Shown piece after piece: positions 9,558-24,631 of a DNA stretch of 42,910 nucleotides. The DNA is from Solidesulfovibrio sp. (GTDB lineage Bacteria > Desulfobacterota > Desulfovibrionia > Desulfovibrionales > Desulfovibrionaceae), in the NCBI RefSeq assembly GCF_029978005.1, contig NZ_JARKOZ010000036.1:1-42910 (forward strand). Direction: 5' to 3'. Each line of letters starts with the position of its first letter. The first letter of the stretch is position 1. Below the pieces are notes generated by a model that made no database searches, was not told the DNA's origin, and was given only the letters and a program-made list of their open reading frames with translations. A program made the translations under genes and the position numbers.

Positions 9558-11023
9558 TCGGGCTGCATGGGCAGGGCGAAGCAGAAGGCGGCGCCCTGCC
9601 CGGGCTCGCTTTCCACCCAGATGCGCCCGCCGTGGGCCAGGGCGATGCCCTCGGCGATGGCCAGGCCCAGTCCCAGGCTCTTCTCCCCGGCCGTGGGCCG
9701 GGCCGACAGGCGCTCGAAGGGCTTGAAAAGCCGCATGCGCTCTTCCGGCAGGATGCCCGGCCCCTGATCGCGCACCCGAACCACGGTCTCCGCGCCCATA
9801 AGACGCAGCTCCACCTTGACCAGGGACCGGGGCGGCGAGAACTTGACCGCGTTGGAGAGCAGATTGTCGAGCAGCCGGGCCAGAAGGTCGGGGTCGAAGG
9901 ACATGGGCGGCGTCTGCTCCACTTCGGCCTCGATGCGGATACCCTTGCCCGAGGCCGTGGCCTCGGCCAGCCGCACCCGCTCCATCACCAGCCCGTCCAG
10001 GCGGGAAATGGCCAGCACCGGCTCCAGCCGGCCGGTCTCCAGGCGGGTGAGGTCCTGCATGTTGGAAGCCAGGGAACACAGCCGCCGGCCGGCCTGGCTG
10101 ATGACGGCCGCCATTTCCCGCACCTCGCCGCCCACGTGGCCGCAGATGCCGTCGAGGATGAGGTTGGCCGCGCCCACGATGCCGCCGGCCGGGCTTTTGA
10201 GGTCATGGGCCAGCATGGACAGGAACATGCGGCGCAGCCGCTCCAGGCGTTTGATCTCGAGCATGCGTTCCACGGCTTCCACGCCGTGCAGCACCCGGCA
10301 GTAAAGCTCCTCGCGCTCGAAGGGCTTGTGGAGGTAGTCGTCGCCGCCGTTTTTGAGAAATTCCGCCGAGATGGATCTCGGGGCCTTGCCCGAGATGCCG
10401 ATGAGGCAGACCTCGCGGCTGCGAAAGCACCGCCGTATGGCCCGGGTCAGCTCCACGCCGTTTTGGCCCGGCATGTCGTAGTCCACGATGACGGCGGCGA
10501 TGTCCGGACGCTGCTCGAGAATGCGCAGGGCCATTTCCGCGCCGGCGGCGGTGTGCACCCGGAACTGGTAGCGCCGCAGCAGCACGCGCAGGTGCATCCG
10601 CATGAAGGCGGAATCCTCCACGACCAGGATGCGGCTGTGGCGGTTTTTCAGCAGCCGACAGGCATACTCGGCCACGCGCTCGGGCTCCTGGGCGTCGGCC
10701 ACCACGAAGTCGATGGCGTCCAGGGCCTCGGCCCGTTCGCGAAGGGCGGACGTGTACACGCTGCCGGCCGCCAGCCAGGGAACCCTGGCGGCAGCGGCCG
10801 CCTCAGCCAGCCGCGTCACCGTGGCCTGGGGCAGGTCCATGTCCACCACGCACAGCGCCCCGCCGGGCCTCGCGGTCCGGGAAAGCAGCTCGATCACGGC
10901 GTCGGGATCTCCGGAACGGACGGCCCCGGGCACGGGCGGTCCGCCGCAGTGGCGGACCAGCGCGGCGGCGAGGGCGGCGCTGTCCGAGGCGAGAATGATG
11001 CGCGGGTCAGACATGGGCGGCAC
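9530..11023 (-). CDS. Receiver-domain sensor histidine kinase
   Basis: A cytosolic protein of 497 residues. Domains in order are: an N-terminal segment (about 1-125) that looks like a divergent receiver domain, a complete receiver domain (about 130-250, phospho-acceptor D181 in VDYDMPG, lysine in HKPF), a HisKA domain (H273 in MLAHDLKSP) and a HATPase domain with DNLLSNAVKF, RDQGPGI and SLGLGLAIAEG motifs. There is no membrane segment, so it must take its input through the receiver domains from another kinase. GTG at 11023 is chosen because GGGGAG lies five bases upstream; ATG at 11014 is the alternative. The output is unknown. Confidence 0.85.
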   Translation of the reverse strand: MPPMSDPRIILASDSAALAAALVRHCGGPPVPGAVRSGDPDAVIELLSRTARPGGALCVVDMDLPQATVTRLAEAAAAARVPWLAAGSVYTSALRERAEALDAIDFVVADAQEPERVAEYACRLLKNRHSRILVVEDSAFMRMHLRVLLRRYQFRVHTAAGAEMALRILEQRPDIAAVIVDYDMPGQNGVELTRAIRRCFRSREVCLIGISGKAPRSISAEFLKNGGDDYLHKPFEREELYCRVLHGVEAVERMLEIKRLERLRRMFLSMLAHDLKSPAGGIVGAANLILDGICGHVGGEVREMAAVISQAGRRLCSLASNMQDLTRLETGRLEPVLAISRLDGLVMERVRLAEATASGKGIRIEAEVEQTPPMSFDPDLLARLLDNLLSNAVKFSPPRSLVKVELRLMGAETVVRVRDQGPGILPEERMRLFKPFERLSARPTAGEKSLGLGLAIAEGIALAHGGRIWVESEPGQGAAFCFALPMQPDQSLLCTCE

Positions 11024-11152
11024 GGCGTCTCCCCGTTGGAATTCCGGGAAGCTACCAGAGCCGCACCCCCAAGGCAATGCTCATCCGCCGCGCAGCGGGG
11101 CCCTGCGGCCGCAGTCCTTGCCGCAGGGCCTTTCCGGCTGTAGAATGGGCGC

Positions 11153-12166
11153 ATGATTTCCGTGGTCATGCCGGCCAGGAACGCCTCCGTCACGCTCCCC
11201 GCCGCCCTTGAGAGCCTTCTTGCCCAGACCGGAGCCGACTTCGAGGTCGTGGCCGTGGACGACGGCTCCGACGACGACGGCGCGACATGGGGCGTGCTCG
11301 CCGCCTTCGCCGCCCGGGACGCCCGGCTGCGCCCGCTTCGCCTCGCCCACGGCGGCGTCGCCGCCGCCCTTTGCGCCGGCCTGGCCGCCGCCCGGGGGCG
11401 CTACATCGCCCGCATGGATGCCGACGACCTCTGCCGCCCCGGCCGCCTGGCCCGGCAGGCCGCCTATCTCGACGCCCACCCCGAAATCGGCCTGGTCTCC
11501 TGCCTGGCTGTCTTCGGCGGCGATCCCGACCGGGCCCGGGGCTACCTCGCCCATATCGAATGGGCCAACGGGCTGCGCGACCCCGAGTCCATCCGGCTGG
11601 GGGCGTTTCGGGAATCGCCCCTGCCGCATCCCACGGTGATGTTTCGGGCCGAGCTCGTCGCGCGCCACGGCGGCTACCGCCAGGGCCCCTTCCCGGAAGA
11701 CTACGAACTGTGGCTGCGCTGGCTCGACGCCGGCGTGGCCATGGCCAAGCTGCCCGAGGAACTGGTGGTGTGGAACGACCCGCCGGGCCGGCTTTCCCGC
11801 ACCGACCCCCGCTACGCCCCGGAGGCGTTCTTCCGCGTCAAGGCCGGCTACCTGGCCCGGGCCCTGGCCCGGCTCAATCCCCACCATCCCCGTGTCCTCG
11901 TGGCCGGGGCCGGCCGGATCACCAGACGACGAGCCGAACACCTCCTGGCCCACGGCATCGCCATCGCCGCCTGGCTGGACATCGACCCCCGCAAGGTGGG
12001 CGCCGTCCTCGACGGGCGTCCGGTGCTGGCCCCGGAGGCGGTCCCCGATCCCGGGGACTGCTTCGTGCTGCCCTACGTGGCCAGCCGGGGAGCGGCCGAC
12101 TCTTGGTCCGCCTTTCTGGAAAGCCGGGGTTTCCTCCTCGGACGCTCCTATCTGCCGGCGGCCTGA
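11153..12166 (+). CDS. Family 2 glycosyltransferase with a Rossmann-like tail
   Basis: A 337-residue protein. Residues 1-250 form a GT-A family 2 glycosyltransferase, with VVMPARNAS, VAVDDGSDD and the metal-binding DADD motif (RMDADDLCRPGRL), followed by the PEDYELWLRWLDAG acceptor motif. Residues about 255-337 form a separate small domain that opens with RVLVAGAGRITRRRAEHLL and contains LDIDP, resembling the nucleotide-binding half of a Rossmann or PglD-N-like fold. The protein probably transfers a sugar in surface glycan synthesis, consistent with rmlBD nearby. The role of the tail is not known. No strong ribosome-binding site is visible. Confidence 0.8.
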   Translation: MISVVMPARNASVTLPAALESLLAQTGADFEVVAVDDGSDDDGATWGVLAAFAARDARLRPLRLAHGGVAAALCAGLAAARGRYIARMDADDLCRPGRLARQAAYLDAHPEIGLVSCLAVFGGDPDRARGYLAHIEWANGLRDPESIRLGAFRESPLPHPTVMFRAELVARHGGYRQGPFPEDYELWLRWLDAGVAMAKLPEELVVWNDPPGRLSRTDPRYAPEAFFRVKAGYLARALARLNPHHPRVLVAGAGRITRRRAEHLLAHGIAIAAWLDIDPRKVGAVLDGRPVLAPEAVPDPGDCFVLPYVASRGAADSWSAFLESRGFLLGRSYLPAA

Positions 12167-15715: not shown

Positions 15716-17164
15716 TCAGGCCAGGAGCGCGAAGAGGAAAAAGAGCCCCGCCCCCAGGAACATGGCCACCGGCAGGGTGAACGCCCAGGCCATGGCGATG
15801 GAGCGCAGGGTGCTCGCCTGGAGCCCGCTTTTGCCCGCGGCCATGGCGCCGGCCACGCCCGAGGACAGCACGTGGGTGGTGGACACGGGCAGGCCCAGCC
15901 CGTCGGCCAGGCCGATGGTGGCCATGGCCACCACCTGCGCCGCCGCGCCCTGGGAATAGGACAGCCTGGACTTGCCGATCTTTTCGCCGATGGTCACCAC
16001 GATGCGCTTCCAGCCGACCATGGTGCCGACGCCAAGGGCCAGGGACACGGCCAGGAGCACCCAGTCCGGGGCGTACTCCGTGGGCCGGCGCAGCGCCTCC
16101 CGCCAGCCCTCGATCATCTCCCGCTCCCCGGCGGAGGCGGCCATGCCTTCCATAAGACGCGAGGCGTCGTCCAGGCACAGGATGTCCGTGCGCACGTCCC
16201 AGCGGTCCTTTTCCGGCAGAGCGGCGATGGTGTCGGCCTGGGCCAGGCGCACCTGGATGGCCTCGGCCGCGGCCACCGCCCCGCGCACGTCGCAGCGCGG
16301 GGCCAGGCCGTCGGCCGGCCGCTCGGCCAATGCGCCGGCGGCGTAGGCCTTCTCGATCTCGAGCCGGTGCGCGTCGAAATAGTCCGTGAACCGGGCCGCC
16401 GCCTCCCGCACGGCCAGCACGTCCCGGCTGGGCGTGTCCACGTCCAGGGCGTAGGCCCCGGGCAGGATGCCTATGAGGATGAGCATGATCAGCCCCACGC
16501 CCTTCTGGCCGTCGTTGGAGCCATGCGCCAGGCTCACGCCGAGCCCGGAGACGATGAGCGCCAGGCGCATGCTGGCCGGCGGCGGCGCGTCGCCCACCGG
16601 CGGGGAATGCAGGGCGGCGTTTTTCAGGTAGCGGCGCAGCAGCAGGAGCAGGCCTCCGGCCAGGACGAAGCCCATGACCGGGGAGATCAAAAGCGACAAC
16701 CCCACTTCCATGGCCTTGTGCCAGTTGACGCCCGACCCGGCCGGCAGGCCCTCGCGCACGGCGTTGGCCAGCCCGACTCCCAGGATGGCCCCGATGAGGG
16801 TGTGGGAGCTCGAGGCCGGCAGCCCCAGGTACCAGGTGCCGAAATTCCACAGGATGGCCGAGACCAAAAGCGAAAAGACCATGGCCAGGCCCAGGTTGGT
16901 GTTGACCGATACCAGCAGATCCACGGGCAGCAGGTGCACGATGGAGTAGGCCACGGCGATGCCGCCCAGGTGCACGCCGAGGAAGTTGCACACGCCCGAC
17001 AGCACCACGGCCGTCCGCGCCCGCAGAGACTTGGTGTAGATGACTGTGGCCACGGCATTGGCCGTGTCGTGAAAGCCGTTGACGAATTCGAAGGAGAGGG
17101 CGATTCCGAGGGAAGCCAACAGGAGAAGGAGGGTATGGCCGTCCAGGCCCCAAAGGAAGTCCAT
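15716..17164 (-). CDS. PiT-family inorganic phosphate transporter
   Basis: A 482-residue membrane protein of the PiT (PF01384) family. The two inverted family signatures are present: FVNGFHDTANAVATVIYTKSL near the N terminus and LAHGSNDGQKGVGLI in the second half. A long soluble insert (about residues 250-360) separates the two membrane halves. It imports phosphate (as metal phosphate) using an ion gradient. The start has GGAG six bases upstream. The preceding gene on this strand encodes a Nif11-like small protein, and the divergent operon begins with an amphi-Trp protein and a PhoU-fusion protein, which ties the region to phosphate. Confidence 0.92.
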   Translation of the reverse strand: MDFLWGLDGHTLLLLLASLGIALSFEFVNGFHDTANAVATVIYTKSLRARTAVVLSGVCNFLGVHLGGIAVAYSIVHLLPVDLLVSVNTNLGLAMVFSLLVSAILWNFGTWYLGLPASSSHTLIGAILGVGLANAVREGLPAGSGVNWHKAMEVGLSLLISPVMGFVLAGGLLLLLRRYLKNAALHSPPVGDAPPPASMRLALIVSGLGVSLAHGSNDGQKGVGLIMLILIGILPGAYALDVDTPSRDVLAVREAAARFTDYFDAHRLEIEKAYAAGALAERPADGLAPRCDVRGAVAAAEAIQVRLAQADTIAALPEKDRWDVRTDILCLDDASRLMEGMAASAGEREMIEGWREALRRPTEYAPDWVLLAVSLALGVGTMVGWKRIVVTIGEKIGKSRLSYSQGAAAQVVAMATIGLADGLGLPVSTTHVLSSGVAGAMAAGKSGLQASTLRSIAMAWAFTLPVAMFLGAGLFFLFALLA

Positions 17165-17306: not shown

Positions 17307-17489
17307 TCAGGTCCCTTCCATGAGGTGCACCAGGGCTTGGCGGGCCTTGAGTTCCTCGGCCGTGAAATGGAAGCCCAGGCTCCCGGCGTATTCGATGAGT
17401 TCGGACAGGGGCATGCCGCCGACCAGGAGCAGCCTGTCCTTGTTTTCGCGCAGATAGTCGAGGAAACGGTCGATTTCTTCCTGGCCCAT
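17307..17489 (-). CDS. Nif11-like small protein
   Basis: A 60-residue protein with the layout of a Nif11 domain: an N-terminal helix (EEIDRFLDYLRENKDRL), a middle helix (LSELIEYAGSLGF) and the characteristic ending FTAEELKARQAL. Nif11-like domains are best known as leader regions of peptide natural-product precursors, but many stand-alone short versions exist with unknown roles. Here only about ten residues follow the domain, without a Gly-Gly site or Cys/Ser/Thr-rich core, so a precursor role is unlikely. An excellent ribosome-binding site (AGGAGG) precedes the ATG. It is probably co-transcribed with the PiT transporter gene 142 bp downstream. Confidence 0.65.
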   Translation of the reverse strand: MGQEEIDRFLDYLRENKDRLLLVGGMPLSELIEYAGSLGFHFTAEELKARQALVHLMEGT

Positions 17490-17628: not shown

Positions 17629-17657
17629 TTTCATCTTATCTTCATAATTCGGTGCTA
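17629..17657 (+). promoter_or_regulatory. Candidate Pho box upstream of the GAK-type cassette
   Basis: TTTTCAT-CTTA-TCTTCAT-AATT (17629-17650) repeats a TTCAT-ending heptamer with an 11-base period, and TCAT recurs at 17632 and 17643. This matches the layout of PhoB boxes (7-bp units every 11 bp with AT-rich spacers). It lies 63 bp upstream of the amphi-Trp start and faces the PiT operon on the other side. The match is to layout and partial sequence only. Confidence 0.4.
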
Positions 17658-17712: not shown

Positions 17713-17994
17713 GTGACGAACAAGCTGTTCAAATATGACGGCCAGCAGGACCGCGCCGCCGTCGCCGAATATCTGGAGGCCGTGCGCGACGGTTTCGCCC
17801 GGGGGACGCTGACCCTGCGCCAGGGCGAGCAGACCCTGGAGCTTTCGCCCAAGGGGCTGGTATCCGTGACCATCGAGGGGAAGCAGAAAAGCGAGGACCG
17901 CAAGCTCAAGCTGACCTTTCGCTGGAAGGAGCGGGACTGCGCCCTGCCCGACGCCCCCCTGCTCATCGCGCCAGGGGATGCGGACGATGCATGA
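17713..17994 (+). CDS. Amphi-Trp domain protein
   Basis: A 93-residue protein with a helix (about residues 8-30) followed by beta strands (LTLRQGEQTLELSPKGLVSVTIEGKQKS) and the closing strand KLKLTFRWKERD that carries the tryptophan (W71) typical of the amphi-Trp domain. This domain is found next to ATP-grasp and HprK-related kinase genes in the cassette I recall as the GAK system; its job is unknown, and it may be the substrate or scaffold. The start is GTG at 17713 behind TAAGGAGG; an ATG two bases earlier reads straight into a stop. Its end overlaps the next gene by eight bases, indicating coupled translation. Confidence 0.82.
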   Translation: MTNKLFKYDGQQDRAAVAEYLEAVRDGFARGTLTLRQGEQTLELSPKGLVSVTIEGKQKSEDRKLKLTFRWKERDCALPDAPLLIAPGDADDA

Positions 17995-19618
17995 GATCGT
18001 AACGAACTTCCAATTCCTGCTCGTGGAGATCGAGCGCCAGCTCGAAGCGACCATGGCCGTAGTGGAGAAGCGCGACGAACGGGCCATCGCCAAGATCGAG
18101 GCCCGAGACGACTACATCGACAATCTCAAAAGCGTCATCGAGAACGCCTGCTTCGCCACCCTGCACGGCGACGAGAAGCTCAGCGCGCCCGAGATGGCCC
18201 GGGTGCGGGCGCTCAACATCATCGGCAACAACCTCGAGCGCGTGGGCGACCACCTCGTCAACGTGGTGCGCCAGACCAGGCACTACGACGAGCCGGAGTG
18301 CATCAAGCGCTACGATTACAAGCCCTTTTTCGCCGAGGTCAAAAAGGCCCTGGACTGGACGCCCAAGGCCGTGCTCGAGCGCGACATGGCGGCGGCGCTC
18401 AAGATCTGCCGCTGCGAGCTGCACCTCGACCGGCTCTACAAGGAGCAGTTCGACCGCATCCGCGACGAGCTGCGCTCGGGCTTCCAGACCGGCGACCTGC
18501 TGACCACGCTGTTCATCTTCCGCTACCTGGAGCGCATGGGCGACGCCCTGCTCAACGTGGGCGAGGCGGCCATCTTCGCCATCACCGGCGACAAGTTCAA
18601 GATCCACCAGTTCACGGCCCTGAAGGACATCCTGGCCGAAGGCGGCCACGAGCTGCCCCTGACCGAGATCGACTTCGAATCCATCTGGGGCACGCGCTCG
18701 GGCTGCCGCATCGGCCGGGTGGCCGACCGCGACGAGAACGGCCAGGCCGGACGCGAAGTCATCTTCAAGGACGGCGACACGGACAAGCTGCGCAAGGAAG
18801 CGGCCAACATCGACCGATGGGAGCGGCTCATGCCCGGGCTCGCCCCCAAGGTGCAGGCCTTCCGGGAAGGCAGGAAGTCGAGCTCCATGCTCGTCGAACT
18901 GCTGCCCGGCCAGACCATCCAGGACATCGCCGTGGGCGGCGACCTGCCGCTTCTGCGCCGGGCCCTGGCCGCCCAGTGCCGGGTGGCCGGCGAGATCTGG
19001 TCCAGGACCCGGTCGGACGGAACGATCCCGGCCGGGGCCTTGCGCCAGCTGCGCTCCCGGCTCGGCGAGGTGCTGACGGTCCACCCGGAATTCAGGAGCG
19101 TCAAACGGGCCATCGGCGGCTGCGCCCTGCCCGACCTCGACGGAGCCCTGGCCGAGGCCGAGGCCGTGGAGGCGACGCTGGCCGCGCCGTTTGGCGTGCT
19201 GCTCCACGGCGACTACAACAGCAACAACATCCTCTACGACCCGGCCGCGGACCGGCTACACTACATCGACCTGCACCGCTCCGGCGAAGGCGACCTGGCC
19301 CAGGACACCTCGGTGTTCATGGTGTCCAACTTCCGCCTGCCGGTCTTCGACGCGGCCAGACGCAGAGTGCTCAACGCCATCATCACCGAGTTCTTCGGCT
19401 TCGCCCGGGGCTTCGCCGCCCGAAACGGCGACGCGACCTTCGAGCTGCGTGTGGCTCTGGGCCTGGCCCGCTCGTTTATCACCTCGACGCGCTTCGAACT
19501 GTCCGAGCGCTTTTCCCGGCTGATGTTTTCCCGGGGCATGTTCCTGCTCGGCCGCGCGGCCGGGCACAAGGGCGAGGCGGCCGCCTTCCGGCTGCCCCTG
19601 GCCAGCGTGTGCTACTAG
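17987..19618 (+). CDS. PhoU domain fused to an APH-type kinase
   Basis: A 543-residue two-part protein. Residues 1-210 form a PhoU domain with both of its three-helix repeats, each bearing the metal-binding motif (ERVGD at 84-88, ERMGD at 182-186). Residues about 235-530 form an aminoglycoside/choline phosphotransferase-like kinase: a possible ATP lysine (K261 in VIFKDG), E271, the catalytic loop HGDYNSNN (H407, D409, N414) and the metal-binding aspartate D428 in YIDLH. The kinase therefore looks active. PhoU proteins link phosphate transport to PhoR/PhoB signalling. ATG at 17987 is preferred because AGGGG sits upstream; ATG at 17978 is possible. The substrate is unknown, and drug resistance is not suggested. 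Confidence 0.85.
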   Translation: MHEIVTNFQFLLVEIERQLEATMAVVEKRDERAIAKIEARDDYIDNLKSVIENACFATLHGDEKLSAPEMARVRALNIIGNNLERVGDHLVNVVRQTRHYDEPECIKRYDYKPFFAEVKKALDWTPKAVLERDMAAALKICRCELHLDRLYKEQFDRIRDELRSGFQTGDLLTTLFIFRYLERMGDALLNVGEAAIFAITGDKFKIHQFTALKDILAEGGHELPLTEIDFESIWGTRSGCRIGRVADRDENGQAGREVIFKDGDTDKLRKEAANIDRWERLMPGLAPKVQAFREGRKSSSMLVELLPGQTIQDIAVGGDLPLLRRALAAQCRVAGEIWSRTRSDGTIPAGALRQLRSRLGEVLTVHPEFRSVKRAIGGCALPDLDGALAEAEAVEATLAAPFGVLLHGDYNSNNILYDPAADRLHYIDLHRSGEGDLAQDTSVFMVSNFRLPVFDAARRRVLNAIITEFFGFARGFAARNGDATFELRVALGLARSFITSTRFELSERFSRLMFSRGMFLLGRAAGHKGEAAAFRLPLASVCY

Positions 19619-19718
19619 CTGCACGCCCGCGAAACACGATAAGCGGCAACGGCCGGCGGGGCGAGGCCACCGGGCCTTGGACGACCGGCGCGACGTCATC
19701 AAGACCATGGGAGGAATC

Positions 19719-20600
19719 ATGAAGAAGATCGGCGTGGTGGGCATCCCCAAGGGATGGTCCACCCTGCGGCTCCTGGACGCCCTGGAAGCACGGACGGGCT
19801 TTCGCCTGTGCATCGACATGGCCGAAGTCCGGCTCGACCTGGACACGGGCAAGCTCTTCTGCCAGGGGACCGACCTCACCGGCCTCGACGCCGTCATCGT
19901 CAAGAAGATCGCCCCGTCCTACACGCCCGACGCCCTGGACCGCATGGAGATGCTGCGCTTTCTCCAGGCCAAGGGCGTGCCGGTTTTCTCCAATCCGGAC
20001 AGCATGCTGCGCCTGATCGACAGACTCAGCGGCACCACCGTGCTGCGCCTGGGCGGCATCCCCATGCCGCCGACCGTGGTCACCGAGGACATCGAGGAGG
20101 CGGCGGCCACGGTGGCCGCATACGGCAAGGCCGTGTTCAAGCCCCTTTTTTCCTCCAAGGCCCGGGGCATGACCGTCATCGAGGACACGCCCGATTCCCG
20201 CGAGGAGATCGCCGACTACAAGGCGGCCGGCAACCAGGTCATGTACATCCAGAAGATGGTCTCCCACGCCGGGGGACACCTGGACCTCGGCGTGTCGTTT
20301 CTGGGCGGCAAGTACCTGGCCACCTACGCTCGCCAGGGCAGCGGCGCATCCTGGGACACCACCACCCGCACCGGCGGCCGCTACGTGCCCCACGAACCGT
20401 CAGAGGAGATCATCGCCCTGGCCCACAAGGCTCAGGCCCTGTTCCCGGACATGGCCTTCACCTGCGTCGACGTGGTGGAAACCCCCGAAGGCGCGGCCAT
20501 CTACGAAGTCTCGGCCTTCGGCGGGTTCCGGGGGCTCCTCGACGCCTGCGGCATCGACGCCGCGGCCGCCTACGCCGACCACGTGCTGGAGAACATCTGA
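19719..20600 (+). CDS. GAK-system ATP-grasp enzyme (RimK-like)
   Basis: A 293-residue ATP-grasp ligase related to the RimK/glutathione-synthetase group. Visible landmarks are the N-terminal Rossmann-like strand KKIGVVGIPKGWST, the ATP lysine (K141 in AVFKPLFSSKARG), the hinge stretch YIQKMV and the metal-binding strand IYEVSAFGGFRG. In most ATP-grasp ligases this last motif reads EVN; here serine 265 replaces the asparagine. Such enzymes join a carboxylate to an amine or thiol using ATP. The start follows GGGAGGAATC. Its stop overlaps the start of the HprK-related kinase gene (TGATG), so the pair is coupled. Confidence 0.85.
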   Translation: MKKIGVVGIPKGWSTLRLLDALEARTGFRLCIDMAEVRLDLDTGKLFCQGTDLTGLDAVIVKKIAPSYTPDALDRMEMLRFLQAKGVPVFSNPDSMLRLIDRLSGTTVLRLGGIPMPPTVVTEDIEEAAATVAAYGKAVFKPLFSSKARGMTVIEDTPDSREEIADYKAAGNQVMYIQKMVSHAGGHLDLGVSFLGGKYLATYARQGSGASWDTTTRTGGRYVPHEPSEEIIALAHKAQALFPDMAFTCVDVVETPEGAAIYEVSAFGGFRGLLDACGIDAAAAYADHVLENI

Positions 20601-21685
20601 TGCCGCATGCTCCCACCATCGCCGGGCTCATGGCCCCTATCCTCGAAACGTCGCCCATCACCCACCGCCTCGACGTCACCTTCGGCGACGTGACGGTGGT
20701 AGTCTCCTCCAACTCGAAAGGCCTCATCGAGAAGCTCGCTAATTATTACCGCGACTTCGTCGGCGGCGGCGGGGCGACCGTGGTCCCGGTCACGGCCATC
20801 GAGGCCGGGCCGCCGGACTTCGACCTGCCGTTCGCCGTCAAGGAGCGCGAGCCCGGCAAGACCAAGCTCAAGGAGGCCTACCACGACCTGCCCGACGGCC
20901 GCGTGGTCAAAAAACTCCTCACGGGCCTGGTCTTTCTCTTCGGCCACGGCGACAACTACGCCGTAGGGCCCTGCATCGACAACGACAACCAGGTCGTCAA
21001 CTTCATCAACAACCGCTTCATCGAGCTGTGCCTCAAGCGCGGCGCCCTGCTCTTCCACGCCGCCGGCGTGGCCGAAGGGGGCGCGGGCCTGGTCGTCTCC
21101 GGCTTTTCCGGGGCCGGCAAATCCACCCTGGCCCTGGAGATCATGCGCCACGGCACGGATTTCGTCAGCAACGACCGGGTGATGGTCTCCCGGGGCGGCG
21201 ACGGGCTCGTCATGACCGGCGTGGCCAAGATGCCGCGGGTCAACCCCGGCACGGTGCTCCACAACCCGAGCCTGGCCCCGGTCATGAGCGAGGAGGACCG
21301 CCGCAGGTTCTCCGCCCTGCCCGCCGCCGAGCTGTGGGACCTGGAGCACAAGTACGACGCCTTCATCGACGAGTGCTTCGGCAAGGGCCGCTTCAAGCTG
21401 TCCTGCCCCATGGCCGGGCTCGTGGTGCTGCGCTGGAAGCGCGACGCCTCGCCCATGACGGCCAGCCGCGTGGATCTGCGCCAGCGGCGCGACCTCATGG
21501 CCGCCTTCATGAAGGACGTGGGCCTTTTCTACGAATTCGAGGACCCGTCCGAGCCCTCCACGGCCAGCCAGAACGCCTACCTCGACCTGCTCGGCGACCT
21601 GCCGGTCCTGGAGATCGACGGCGGCGTGGACTTCCACAAGGCGGCCGAGGCCTGCCTGGACTTCCTGCGCCAAGTCCGGCGCTAG
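20600..21685 (+). CDS. HprK-related kinase B
   Basis: A 361-residue protein whose second half resembles the catalytic domain of HPr kinase/phosphorylase. It has LFHAAGVAEGGAGLVVSG, the Walker A loop GFSGAGKST (residues 168-176) and the SNDRVMVSR strand with a catalytic-type aspartate (D192). The first 150 residues are unlike HprK and specific to this family. There is no PTS gene in the window, so HPr is an unlikely substrate. A natural candidate target is the amphi-Trp protein or the product of the ATP-grasp enzyme. It ends the four-gene cassette and overlaps the preceding stop codon by one base. Confidence 0.85.
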   Translation: MPHAPTIAGLMAPILETSPITHRLDVTFGDVTVVVSSNSKGLIEKLANYYRDFVGGGGATVVPVTAIEAGPPDFDLPFAVKEREPGKTKLKEAYHDLPDGRVVKKLLTGLVFLFGHGDNYAVGPCIDNDNQVVNFINNRFIELCLKRGALLFHAAGVAEGGAGLVVSGFSGAGKSTLALEIMRHGTDFVSNDRVMVSRGGDGLVMTGVAKMPRVNPGTVLHNPSLAPVMSEEDRRRFSALPAAELWDLEHKYDAFIDECFGKGRFKLSCPMAGLVVLRWKRDASPMTASRVDLRQRRDLMAAFMKDVGLFYEFEDPSEPSTASQNAYLDLLGDLPVLEIDGGVDFHKAAEACLDFLRQVRR

Positions 21686-21853: not shown

Positions 21854-24631
21854 ATGACCGATCCCAAGTCCCCGGCCGCGACCAAGCCGGAAAACGCCCC
21901 GGGCGATGCCGGACAGGATGCCCTGCGCCTGGCCCCGGAGGAAGAATTCCTCAAGAACCTCGAACATTTCGTCCAGAAGGCCAACGCTTTCGACGCCCTG
22001 GCCCACCAGCGCAAGATCCCGGCCTACGACGTCTACAAGCACCTGGCCGGCCTGTGGGAGCAGGTGGCCGTTTCCGGGCAGTGGCTGAGTGAACCCCAGC
22101 CCGAAGTCAAGCCGGCCATGGCCGGCCTGACCTCCCAGGAGGCCAAGGAACGCCTCAGGCAGTACGGCCCCAACCAGGCCACCACGGCCAAGGCCGTGAC
22201 CCTCCTGGACCGGCTGTGGGATTCGGTGAAAAACCCCCTGGTGCTGCTGCTCTTCGTGCTCGGCGGCATCTCCTACGCCACGGACGACATCCGCTCGGCC
22301 GTGGTCATCATCGGCATGGCCGTCATGGGCGTGGTGCTCAAGGTCATCCAGGAGGCCAAGGCCGACACCGCTGCGGCGGAACTCAAAAAGATGGTCCACA
22401 CCACGGCCACGGTGCTGCGCGACGGCAGCCAGCGCGAGATTCCCCTGGCCCGGGTGGTGCCGGGCGACATCGTGCTGCTGGCCGCCGGCGACATGGTGCC
22501 GGCCGACGTGCAGCTCGTGCGGGCCAAGGACCTGCACATCAACCAGGCCATGCTCACGGGCGAAGCCCTGCCCGTGGAAAAGACGACCCGGCCGGCCGGC
22601 GAGGCCCCGCGCGAGGGCGAGACTGGCCTTGGCGACCCGGCCATGTGCTTCATGGGCACCAACGTGGTGTCCGGCTCCGCCGCCGCCGTGGTCACGGCCA
22701 CCGGGGCCAGGACCTATTTCGGCGGCATCGCGGCCAAGCTGTCGGAAAAGCGCGTCGAGACCGACTTCGACAAGGGCATCAAGAGCTTCACCGGGCTCAT
22801 GCTGCGCTTCATGCTGGTCATGGTGCCCTTCGTTTTCATCGTCAACGGCGCGACCAGTCACGACTGGATGGGCGCGTTCATGTTCGCCCTGGCCGTGGCC
22901 GTGGGGCTCACCCCGGAAATGCTGCCCATGGTGGTCACGGTCTGCCTGTCCAAGGGCGCGCTGGCCATGTCCAAGCACAAGGTCATCGTCAAGCGCCTGG
23001 ACGCCATCCAGAACTTCGGGGCCATCGACGTCCTGTGCACGGACAAGACCGGCACGCTGACCCAGGACAAGATCATCCTGGAGAAATACCTCGACGTCAC
23101 GGGCGAGGAGGACTGCTCGGTCCTGGAATACGCCTACGTCAACAGCAAGCTCCAGACGGGCCTTCGCAACGCCCTGGACGTGGCCGTCATCACCTCCGGC
23201 GACGGGGCCGGCTCGTCCATCGACCCGGACCGCTACGAACTCCTCGACGAGATCCCCTTCGACTTCATGCGCCGGCGTCTGAGCGTCATCGTGCGCGACA
23301 AAAAGACGGACAAGGCCATCCTCATCTGCAAGGGCGCGGCCGAGGAAGTCTTCTCCCAAAGCCGCGACTGCCTCCACGACGGCGTAATCTCCCCCCTGGA
23401 CGAGATCCACCGCGAGACCATGCAGGAGGTGGTGCACGACCTCAACGACGACGGCTTCCGCGTGGTGGCCCTGGCCTTCAAGGAAGTGGACGGGGCGCGC
23501 CACGACTTCGCCGTGGCCGACGAGCGCGACCTGACGCTGATGGGCTACCTGGCCTTCCTCGACCCGCCCAAGGACACCGCCGCCGACGCCCTGGCCACCA
23601 TGATCGCCCACGGCATCCAGCCCAAGATCGTCACCGGCGACAACGCCGTCATCACGGCGAAAATCTGCCGCGAGGTCCGCTTCGACGCCGGCGACCACAT
23701 CATCACCGGCGACCAGGTGGCGGCCATGTCCGAGGCGGAGCTCGGCGAGGCCGTGGGCGTGTGCCATGTCTTCGCCAAGCTCGACCCCATGCAGAAGGAG
23801 CAGATCGTCGCGGCCCTGCGCCGCAAGGGCCACGTGGTCGGCTTCATGGGCGACGGCATCAACGACGCGCCGGCCCTTCGCGCCGCCGACGTCGGCATCT
23901 CCGTGGACTCGGCCGTGGACGTGGCCAAGGAATCGGCGGACATCATCCTGCTCGAAAAGAGCCTGCACGTGCTGGAACACGGCGTGCTGGAAGGCCGCAA
24001 GATCTTCTTCAACATCACCAAGTACATCCGCATGGGGGCCAGCTCCAACTTCGGCAACATGTTCAGCGTGCTCGGGGCCAGCGCCTTCCTGCCCTTCCTG
24101 CCCATGCTGCCCATCCAGATCCTGGTCAACAACCTCATGTACGACTTCTCCCAGACGGCCATCCCCACGGACAATGTGGACGCCGACATCCTGAGCAAGC
24201 CGCGGCGCTGGCGCATCGACGACATCCGCCGCTACATCCTCTACCTCGGCCCGGTGAGCTCCATCTTCGACTACGTGACCTTCTTCATCATGATCCACTT
24301 CTTCGGGGCCTGGAACAACGCCGCCCTGTTCCAGACCGGCTGGTTCATCGAGTCGCTGCTGTCCCAGACCATCATCGTGCACGTCATCCGCACGGACAAC
24401 ATCCCCTTCCTGCAGAGCTGGTCCAGCCTGCCGCTCGGCATGACGACCATCCTCATCTGCATCTTCGGCGTCTGGTTGCCGTTTTCGCCCCTGGCCGGAA
24501 CCTTCGGACTGGTCGTGCCGCCGGCCGGCTACTGGGGCCTCATGGCGCTGGTGATCTTCTGCTACATGTGCCTGGCCCAGGTGGTGAAGTCCTGGGTGGT
24601 GCGCCGCATCCAGGCGACCACCCCTGCCTAG
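21854..24631 (+). CDS. mgtA: Magnesium-translocating P-type ATPase (MgtA type)
   Basis: A 925-residue P-type ATPase. The phosphorylated aspartate is D397 in DVLCTDKTGTLTQDK. The actuator motif is TGEALPVEK, and GDGINDAPALRAADVGISVD marks the hinge. The membrane motif VGLTPEMLPMVV and the stretch KVIVKRLDAIQNFGAIDVLCTDKTGTLTQDK are the hallmark of MgtA/MgtB magnesium importers rather than calcium pumps. The N terminus carries an extra hydrophilic stretch of about 75 residues. The start is preceded by GGAG. The 168-bp leader shows no Mg2+-sensing structure that I can recognise. It is on the same strand as the GAK-type cassette but separated by 168 bp. Confidence 0.88.
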   Translation: MTDPKSPAATKPENAPGDAGQDALRLAPEEEFLKNLEHFVQKANAFDALAHQRKIPAYDVYKHLAGLWEQVAVSGQWLSEPQPEVKPAMAGLTSQEAKERLRQYGPNQATTAKAVTLLDRLWDSVKNPLVLLLFVLGGISYATDDIRSAVVIIGMAVMGVVLKVIQEAKADTAAAELKKMVHTTATVLRDGSQREIPLARVVPGDIVLLAAGDMVPADVQLVRAKDLHINQAMLTGEALPVEKTTRPAGEAPREGETGLGDPAMCFMGTNVVSGSAAAVVTATGARTYFGGIAAKLSEKRVETDFDKGIKSFTGLMLRFMLVMVPFVFIVNGATSHDWMGAFMFALAVAVGLTPEMLPMVVTVCLSKGALAMSKHKVIVKRLDAIQNFGAIDVLCTDKTGTLTQDKIILEKYLDVTGEEDCSVLEYAYVNSKLQTGLRNALDVAVITSGDGAGSSIDPDRYELLDEIPFDFMRRRLSVIVRDKKTDKAILICKGAAEEVFSQSRDCLHDGVISPLDEIHRETMQEVVHDLNDDGFRVVALAFKEVDGARHDFAVADERDLTLMGYLAFLDPPKDTAADALATMIAHGIQPKIVTGDNAVITAKICREVRFDAGDHIITGDQVAAMSEAELGEAVGVCHVFAKLDPMQKEQIVAALRRKGHVVGFMGDGINDAPALRAADVGISVDSAVDVAKESADIILLEKSLHVLEHGVLEGRKIFFNITKYIRMGASSNFGNMFSVLGASAFLPFLPMLPIQILVNNLMYDFSQTAIPTDNVDADILSKPRRWRIDDIRRYILYLGPVSSIFDYVTFFIMIHFFGAWNNAALFQTGWFIESLLSQTIIVHVIRTDNIPFLQSWSSLPLGMTTILICIFGVWLPFSPLAGTFGLVVPPAGYWGLMALVIFCYMCLAQVVKSWVVRRIQATTPA

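Follow-up and report, generated by a model that had tools for sequence, protein, structure and literature searches.

Several described enzyme systems bear on the gene cassette considered here. The NCBIfam collection holds a series of models, TIGR04354 through TIGR04358, for what is termed the GAK system, a grouping given in the descriptions of its ATP-grasp, CofD-like and XXXCH models. In the ligases RimK and LysX, the Asn of an EVN motif binds Mg2+; HPr kinase (HprK) carries a DDR motif; and the inositol-pyrophosphate enzymes of eukaryotes are IP6K, PPIP5K and DIPP. We analyzed a stretch of 42,910 nucleotides from Solidesulfovibrio sp. (contig NZ_JARKOZ010000036.1 of assembly GCF_029978005.1), referred to at its full length as the window, in which a preliminary description had recognized a four-gene cassette at positions 17713 to 21685 and assigned it, rightly, to the GAK system. 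In the literature searched, no paper contained the terms 'amphi-Trp' or 'GAK system' or any of TIGR04354-TIGR04358, and no paper held three of PhoU, CofD, HPr kinase, ATP-grasp and the amphi-Trp domain. GAK is widespread but apparently unstudied.

We find that the fusion of a PhoU domain to an APH-type small-molecule kinase (PhoU-APH) belongs to the GAK system almost invariably, and is not a stand-in for missing CofD-like and XXXCH proteins. Our leading explanation, offered tentatively, is that GAK constitutes a phosphate-responsive cycle in which kinases and phosphatases act on a small molecule that is polyphosphorylated and probably stores phosphorus; both the substrate and the reactions are what we infer from the genes. 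Once a phosphate-sensor kinase and a phosphoesterase are counted among its members, and Pst, PhoU and PitA neighbors, PhoB-box repeats and the rarity of polyphosphate kinase 1 (PPK1) are considered, an unknown cassette becomes a concrete hypothesis about phosphate metabolism. If true, bacteria would possess a second route of phosphorus storage besides polyphosphate.

Composition and conservation of the GAK cassette

Curated NCBIfam and Pfam profiles identify the four genes as encoding an amphi-Trp protein, PhoU-APH, a GAK-system ATP-grasp enzyme and an HprK-related kinase B (HprK-B), all four families scoring above their curated cut-offs (Table 1). The PhoU domain of the fusion (PF01895, 72.2 bits, cut-off 23.5) is matched in two stretches, the best at residues 18–99, and the APH domain (PF01636, 32.3 bits, cut-off 23.2) spans residues 260–467; because both matches lie within a single 546-residue frame, the fusion is a true one. 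Its scores against phoU_full (TIGR02135, 77.4 bits, cut-off 130.25) and APH(3') (NF033068, 24.1 bits, cut-off 205) fall short, so that it is not a PhoU equivalog and not a resistance enzyme either, and a reading as an aminoglycoside 3'-phosphotransferase was rejected on this score. The amphi-Trp stop codon (17994) falls within the phoU-aph start region (ATG at 17978 or 17987), and one base (20600) is common to the ATP-grasp TGA and the hprK ATG, so that two of the three junctions overlap, as originally described; the third is a gap of 100 nt between the phoU-aph stop (19618) and the ATP-grasp ATG (19719). The ATP-grasp model TIGR04356 was above its cut-off in none of 14 control genomes, and the nearest named loci include that of Solidesulfovibrio alcoholivorans, with an ATP-grasp enzyme 96% identical to that of the window.

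Conservation was assessed in a related set, comprising 37 loci of 35 relatives besides the window's own genome, and in a wider set obtained by scanning a species-level genome collection, from which the 80 best of 496 stretches were taken. All 496 encode an ATP-grasp relative, not all of them scored against the cut-off, and the two sets share some genomes. The gene immediately preceding that for the GAK ATP-grasp enzyme is phoU-aph in 35 of 36 related and 68 of 72 wider loci; these counts omit one related and eight wider loci with less than 2.2 kb of upstream flank. The recurrence of this order in both sets indicates that the arrangement is not chance, and the adjacency first seen in the window is borne out. 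Four wider loci (L080, L081, L138 and L149) have no PhoU-APH directly upstream; in L149 it is downstream. Amphi-Trp is found at 35/37 related and 72/80 wider loci, and HprK-B at 31/37 and 67/80. By genome, PhoU-APH is present in all 36 ATP-grasp-positive relatives (own genome included) and in none of 23 negative ones. A draw of 297 genomes from the phylum gave 20/20 GAK-positive genomes with PhoU-APH vs 2/277 others, with partial or sub-cut-off ATP-grasp matches scored as negative (G136, 256 bits; G310, 153; G266, 144). Confidence in the gene linkage of the cassette is very high.

Both exceptions, G277 and G299, belong to family f87 and carry amphi-Trp and PhoU-APH together, with no ATP-grasp match listed. 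A gene for a PHP-like protein (see below) is adjacent to the pair in G277 and on another contig in G299, and genes for ATP-grasp, HprK-B and CofD were not found alongside the f87 amphi-Trp/PhoU-APH loci. These exceptions suggest that GAK is made of two modules, PHP/amphi-Trp/PhoU-APH and ATP-grasp/HprK-B/CofD. At the f87 locus L154 (6789–11276), the PHP/amphi-Trp/PhoU-APH genes, without a GAK ATP-grasp gene, have a gene for acetate kinase as a neighbor (TIGR00016, 485 bits, cut-off 293).

The absence of CofD-like and XXXCH genes, remarked on in the preliminary description, holds for the window contig (C98 of a 4.8 Mb draft assembly in 224 contigs) but not for the genome. Contig C193 encodes a CofD-like GAK protein (548.2 bits, cut-off 340) next to a second HprK-B, the pair being preceded by a PhoU equivalog (153.6 bits, cut-off 130.25), and XXXCH proteins are encoded on C202 (111.1 bits) and C39 (92.9 bits; cut-off 40). 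On C202, pstS, pstC and pstA (all above NCBIfam cut-offs) and phoH are followed by a second cassette comprising XXXCH, the PHP-like gene, amphi-Trp (70.1 bits, cut-off 31) and a second PhoU-APH; the N-terminal part of this XXXCH protein was considered as an amphi-Trp domain and rejected, NCBIfam matching the XXXCH part only. The GAK members of this genome are therefore distributed over four draft contigs and do not form one operon; in many other genomes they do, an arrangement not known as a curated GAK criterion. GAK is here a system split over several loci, of which the window cassette forms one part.

Other arrangements were also seen. The XXXCH gene on C39 adjoins parA/parB and mla genes. 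The stand-alone XXXCH gene of L006 (53–340) directly precedes parA, with parB and mla genes downstream. One contig of genome G003 (L059, L060) holds two inverted, equally scoring cassette copies with pitA and mgtA, separated by about 46 kb. In L073 (G018), a second GAK ATP-grasp/HprK-B pair follows mgtA, with PhoU-APH not in that stretch and a full GAK operon (L049) in the same genome.

Co-located enzymes with unrelated tasks, or a selfish or horizontally moved operon, would be compatible with presence in distant phyla, which would suit horizontal spread. We regard this as very improbable, given that the members are retained in the present genome although on four draft contigs, that their presence sets are identical with PhoU-APH, and that their catalytic residues are conserved.

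A PHP-fold phosphoesterase and its alternatives

An additional GAK gene, PHP-like, occurs in 52/80 wider and 22/37 related loci and in 17/20 GAK-positive phylum genomes vs 4/277 others. Pfam and NCBIfam gave no match for the one member tested, and its profile found no match at E 1 among Protein Data Bank (PDB) sequences. An AlphaFold2 model of one member (predicted local distance difference test, pLDDT, 91) matched 9etk (E 2.9e-5) and 3e0f/3o0f in Foldseek, with RNase AM among the matches, and aligned in VIA with 3o0f (Z 15.2, root-mean-square deviation 3.7 over 243 residues) and 2yb1 (Z 13.9). HxH and DxH are metal motifs of the PHP fold, and H69, H71, H279, D335 and H337 are invariant among 49 sequences. 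As modeled, the product is a PHP-fold phosphoesterase.

Ten wider loci (L110, L122, L127, L128, L132, L133, L134, L138, L141 and L149), seven of them gamma- or alphaproteobacterial, encode both a His-phosphatase and a phosphoesterase of the calcineurin-like kind, and a PHP gene was not seen in them; families were assigned by BLAST clustering, and Pfam confirmed five of the ten in each case. Several also encode a SixA-Nudix fusion or a Nudix protein, as in the gammaproteobacterial clusters L127 (7860–15606), L134 and L149, where SixA-Nudix, Nudix, His_Phos_1 and calcineurin-like genes occur together and no PHP gene was seen. In one SixA-Nudix fusion, the Nudix half was matched to Ap4A hydrolases and also, though weakly, to diphosphoinositol polyphosphate hydrolases (E 9e-4); the calcineurin-like partner gave no match at E 0.01 among PDB sequences. 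Such a pattern, one phosphatase swapped for others in the company of two kinases and an ATP-grasp enzyme, would be expected of a make-and-break phosphate cycle.

Catalytic residues and the amphi-Trp protein

In PhoU-APH, residues K264, E274, H410-G-D-x-N-x-x-N417 and D431 are invariant in 26 relatives drawn from sulfate reducers, gamma- and alphaproteobacteria, one Polyangia and one Phycisphaerae (L105 omitted). HprK-B keeps the P-loop, H153 and N191-D192-R193 at ≥98% (at least) in 67 sequences; it scores under the HprK equivalog (TIGR00679, 27.6 bits vs 240) and far below the cut-off of the kinase A model (31.5 bits). The ATP-grasp enzyme is RimK/LysX-like and retains the ATP-grasp core, scoring under the RimK-family cut-off (TIGR00768, 92.9 bits vs 143.4) and also below that of the MptN model (129 bits). 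Its EVN motif is EVS and its R/I-x-N motif is N-x-T, and amide-ligase chemistry is consequently not to be assumed.

Sixty-eight aligned amphi-Trp proteins share a single invariant residue, W71, and no Ser, Thr, His or Tyr is common to all; the commonest Ser (48/68) is Gly in the window copy. Lys59 is kept in 59/68 and Lys/Arg64 in 61/68, and positions 57, 59 and 64, near a hairpin, are mostly basic, which would fit polyanion binding better than a modified substrate. The AlphaFold2 model (pLDDT 85.7) has one helix and four strands; Foldseek returned no match at E 0.001 and the best VIA-align score was Z 3.0, which is not evidence for a new fold. A profile search against PDB sequences retrieved a designed Ig-like protein (E 6e-4) and weaker chains, taken as chance. 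Second amphi-Trp proteins in L124 (13247–13690) and L137 (13168–13605) have Lys/Ala/Pro-rich tails that by eye are like the histone H1-like AlgP, and the tail is acidic in others (L120). AlgP is reported to act on polyphosphate granules in Pseudomonas (PMC9239181).

These data bear on the proposal that GAK is a protein-modification system, with HprK-B and PhoU-APH phosphorylating and the ATP-grasp enzyme adding an amino acid to amphi-Trp or XXXCH proteins, in the manner of HprK/HPr and LysX/LysW. Such a system would account for an ATP-grasp enzyme closest to RimK, LysX and MptN, ligases that attach amino acids to proteins or cofactors, for the relationship of HprK-B to HPr kinase, and for small amphi-Trp proteins as near-constant neighbors. 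We nevertheless consider it unlikely, if a serious contender: the amphi-Trp alignment provides no universal hydroxyl or His residue, the f87 amphi-Trp gene stays with PhoU-APH where the genes for the other enzymes were not found alongside, and small phosphoanhydrides would suit the Nudix partners better. The suggestion in the preliminary description that amphi-Trp is the modified target gains no support from the alignment.

Phosphate-related neighbors and PhoB-box repeats

A tie to phosphate supply, also suggested at the outset, is supported by neighboring genes and by PhoB-box repeats in part of the loci. PstB and PhoU are encoded directly upstream of the operon in 4/37 related loci (L044, L051, L054 and L069), and six wider loci (L084, L085, L092, L093, L095 and L141) have pst/phoU genes within reach, L085 being the same locus as L044. 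Upstream of the window cassette is a direct repeat, TTTCAT-N5-CTTCAT, that coincides with a conserved block in the genus alignment. Of 13 upstream regions from the genus, the window's among them, 11 contain repeats of the form YTTCAY-N5-YTTCAY, which occur in 0/300 shuffles; as this motif was designed after viewing the window block, only the published-consensus version counts as a test.

That version, YGTNAY-N5-YGTNAY, is the D. vulgaris PhoB consensus, given with a '4-bp spacer' in PMC3333781, with its last position relaxed from C to Y. The spacer of 5 was chosen because boxes of the E. coli type have an 11-bp period; the 10-bp (N4) repeat, a literal rendering of the published spacer, was found in no region examined. 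The tested repeat is present in 7 of 23 upstream regions, from about four lineages, against 0.06 expected and 0/300 shuffles; with the last position kept as C, it is present in three (0.02 expected). The 23 regions are 22 from other genera plus this genome's second cassette, with L004, L006, L058, L060 and L073 left out, and rest on our own gene calls, which place the first gene of L040 and L051 inside the operon. The window repeat is a candidate PhoB box; since it is a conserved feature of the genus with a flavor other than that of the consensus, PhoB control of the window cassette is unproven.

A phosphate-linked role could instead fall to a low-abundance signal or cofactor, resembling F420 or an inositol pyrophosphate, through which PhoU/PhoR would be informed of phosphate state, and not to a bulk store. 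The kinase fused to PhoU and the PhoB-box repeats would fit this, the CofD-like and RimK/MptN-like enzymes resemble F420 or methanopterin chemistry, and the ATP-grasp kinase, His-phosphatase and Nudix proteins resemble those of eukaryotic inositol-pyrophosphate turnover. Against it, the only other NCBIfam match of the CofD-like protein, which also matches solved UPF0052 proteins, is YvcK (110.7 bits, below the cut-off of 196), and the PitA and MgtA genes flanking the window cassette suggest bulk flow of inorganic phosphate and Mg2+. We judge a signal or cofactor rather unlikely.

Distribution of polyphosphate kinases and the granules of Desulfovibrio gigas

Neither PPK1 nor polyphosphate kinase 2 (PPK2) has a match in the present genome. 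Among 59 relatives, PPK1 is found in three and PPK2 in two, all GAK-negative, so that PPK2 is absent from all 36 GAK-positive relatives; in the phylum draw, PPK1 occurs in 31/297 genomes, none GAK-positive. Pooled, PPK1 is present in 0/55 GAK-positive vs 34/300 negative genomes (Fisher, P 0.005), and within the window's family in 0/26 vs 9/19 (P 0.0001, shared ancestry ignored). PPK1 is also missing from 24 of 28 wider GAK genomes, the 28 having been chosen for breadth from the 80 wider loci. Both f87 genomes with PhoU-APH but without a GAK ATP-grasp enzyme have PPK1.

The granules of D. gigas are reportedly composed of alpha-glucose pentakis(diphosphate), a finding ascribed to Hensgens and others in 1996. 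Genome G028, taken as D. gigas, has no match to PPK1 or PPK2 and carries a full GAK operon (L051) with PstB, PhoU, XXXCH, PHP, amphi-Trp, PhoU-APH, ATP-grasp, HprK-B and CofD. Large phosphate granules are attributed to this organism (PMC5134017). GAK could be the pathway behind these granules: a sugar-pyrophosphate store built by the APH kinase, the ATP-grasp enzyme and HprK-B, broken down by PHP or by His-phosphatase and Nudix enzymes, and replacing PPK1 in several phyla. So specific an assignment is a long shot. In L051, about 1 kb (10827–11876, minus strand) separates amphi-Trp and PhoU-APH, and Pfam returned nothing at E 1e-4 for an open reading frame in that interval.

A proposed phosphate cycle

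In the cycle that we favor, a small molecule would become heavily phosphorylated or pyrophosphorylated and serve most likely as an intracellular store of phosphorus (and Mg2+) in bacteria that mostly lack PPK1. The PhoU domain would sense phosphate state and set the fused APH-type kinase, and the ATP-grasp enzyme and HprK-B would add further phosphoryl groups. The CofD-like protein may handle a nucleotide-linked donor or precursor. Phosphate would be removed by the PHP enzyme or, elsewhere, by His-phosphatase, calcineurin-like and Nudix enzymes, and the polyanion may be bound by the amphi-Trp protein, in which the charged residues with the highest conservation are basic.

Several observations weigh against such a store. 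HprK-B is missing from 6/37 related loci, and the PHP-like gene is not at the window locus, its copy in this genome being on C202. The nearest solved relatives of the ATP-grasp enzyme are the amino-acid ligases RimK and LysX, so that it may form an amide instead of phosphorylating. Pst genes adjoin only a minority of GAK loci, the PhoB-consensus repeat is missing in 16 of the 23 other regions, and the D. vulgaris consensus is in none of the 13 genus regions, window included, the window's own repeat departing from it. The pooled PPK1 comparison ignores shared ancestry, and the non-overlap is not significant in the phylum draw alone (P 0.24) or in the relatives alone (P 0.054); because PPK1 is lacking in 266/297 phylum genomes, the non-overlap is weak there by itself. 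Four wider GAK genomes, all of the His-phosphatase variant, do have PPK1: Onishia (two), Methylophaga and Roseibium. The P-rich granules of D. alaskensis vanish at low phosphate (PMC5193443), whereas PhoB control would mean induction under that condition. Pho control nonetheless has a parallel in E. coli ppk.

Genes flanking the window cassette

The cassette lies between genes for a divergent PitA-like transporter and an MgtA-type ATPase (Table 1). The PitA protein also reaches 504 bits against NF033774, under the cut-off of 800. PitA, at 60% query cover, is found in 12/37 related loci, all of the window's genus, and flanks the cassette in most genus loci; MgtA adjoins GAK in 14/37 related loci, 12 of those in the genus. 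The Nif11-like gene belongs to a homologous cluster called in 11 loci, window counted, in this genus only. A reading as a ribosomally synthesized and post-translationally modified peptide was rejected: both scores are under cut-off, the gene is confined to the genus, and no core peptide was seen.

Table 1. Features of the window cassette and its flanks, with profile scores in bits.
Feature	Position	Strand	Evidence and remarks
PitA-like inorganic phosphate transporter	15716..17164	-	PF01384 293.9, cut-off 33.7; divergent from cassette
Nif11-like 60-residue protein	17307..17489	-	PF07862 21.5 (cut-off 23.8) and TIGR03798 18.1 (cut-off 32.3), both under; between pitA and cassette
PhoB-box-like direct repeat, TTTCAT-N5-CTTCAT (candidate)	17629..17645	+	11-bp period; 67 bp before amphi-Trp start
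Amphi-Trp protein, 93 residues	17713..17994	+	TIGR04354 72.8, cut-off 31; GTG start
PhoU-APH fusion (PhoU domain and APH-type small-molecule kinase), 546 residues	17978..19618	+	PF01895, PF01636; start 17978 or 17987
GAK-system ATP-grasp enzyme	19719..20600	+	TIGR04356 427.8, cut-off 300
HprK-related kinase B	20600..21685	+	TIGR04355 566.4, cut-off 200; Walker A motif intact
MgtA-type Mg2+ P-type ATPase	21854..24631	+	TIGR01524 1102.5, cut-off 610.75; directly downstream of cassette

Comparison with known systems

The system in this genome matches the NCBIfam GAK definition in its amphi-Trp, ATP-grasp and HprK-B proteins in the cassette and its CofD-like and XXXCH proteins elsewhere in the genome, all above cut-offs; it differs in being split over loci and in its PitA and MgtA flanks. 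PhoU-APH and the PHP-fold phosphoesterase are further frequent members, neither of which matched a GAK-named model. The ATP-grasp enzyme shares fold family and ATP site with the RimK, LysX and MptN ligases, but scores below their cut-offs and has Ser for the Asn of EVN and N-x-T for R/I-x-N. HprK-B has the P-loop kinase core of HprK and HprK-related kinase A, with NDR where HprK has DDR and scores far under their cut-offs. PhoU-APH unites in one chain the domains of PhoU and of APH small-molecule kinases, with the kinase residues intact.

With polyphosphate storage by PPK1 and PPK2, the role proposed for GAK would have in common phosphorus storage under Pho control, whereas PPK1 is found in 0/55 GAK-positive phylum genomes and PPK2 in 0/36 GAK-positive relatives. 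As in the IP6K/PPIP5K/DIPP pathway, an ATP-grasp kinase, a protein-kinase-like kinase, a histidine phosphatase and a Nudix hydrolase come together, although no homology emerged at the family level and the sole match is that of the Nudix half of one SixA-Nudix protein to DIPP (E 9e-4).

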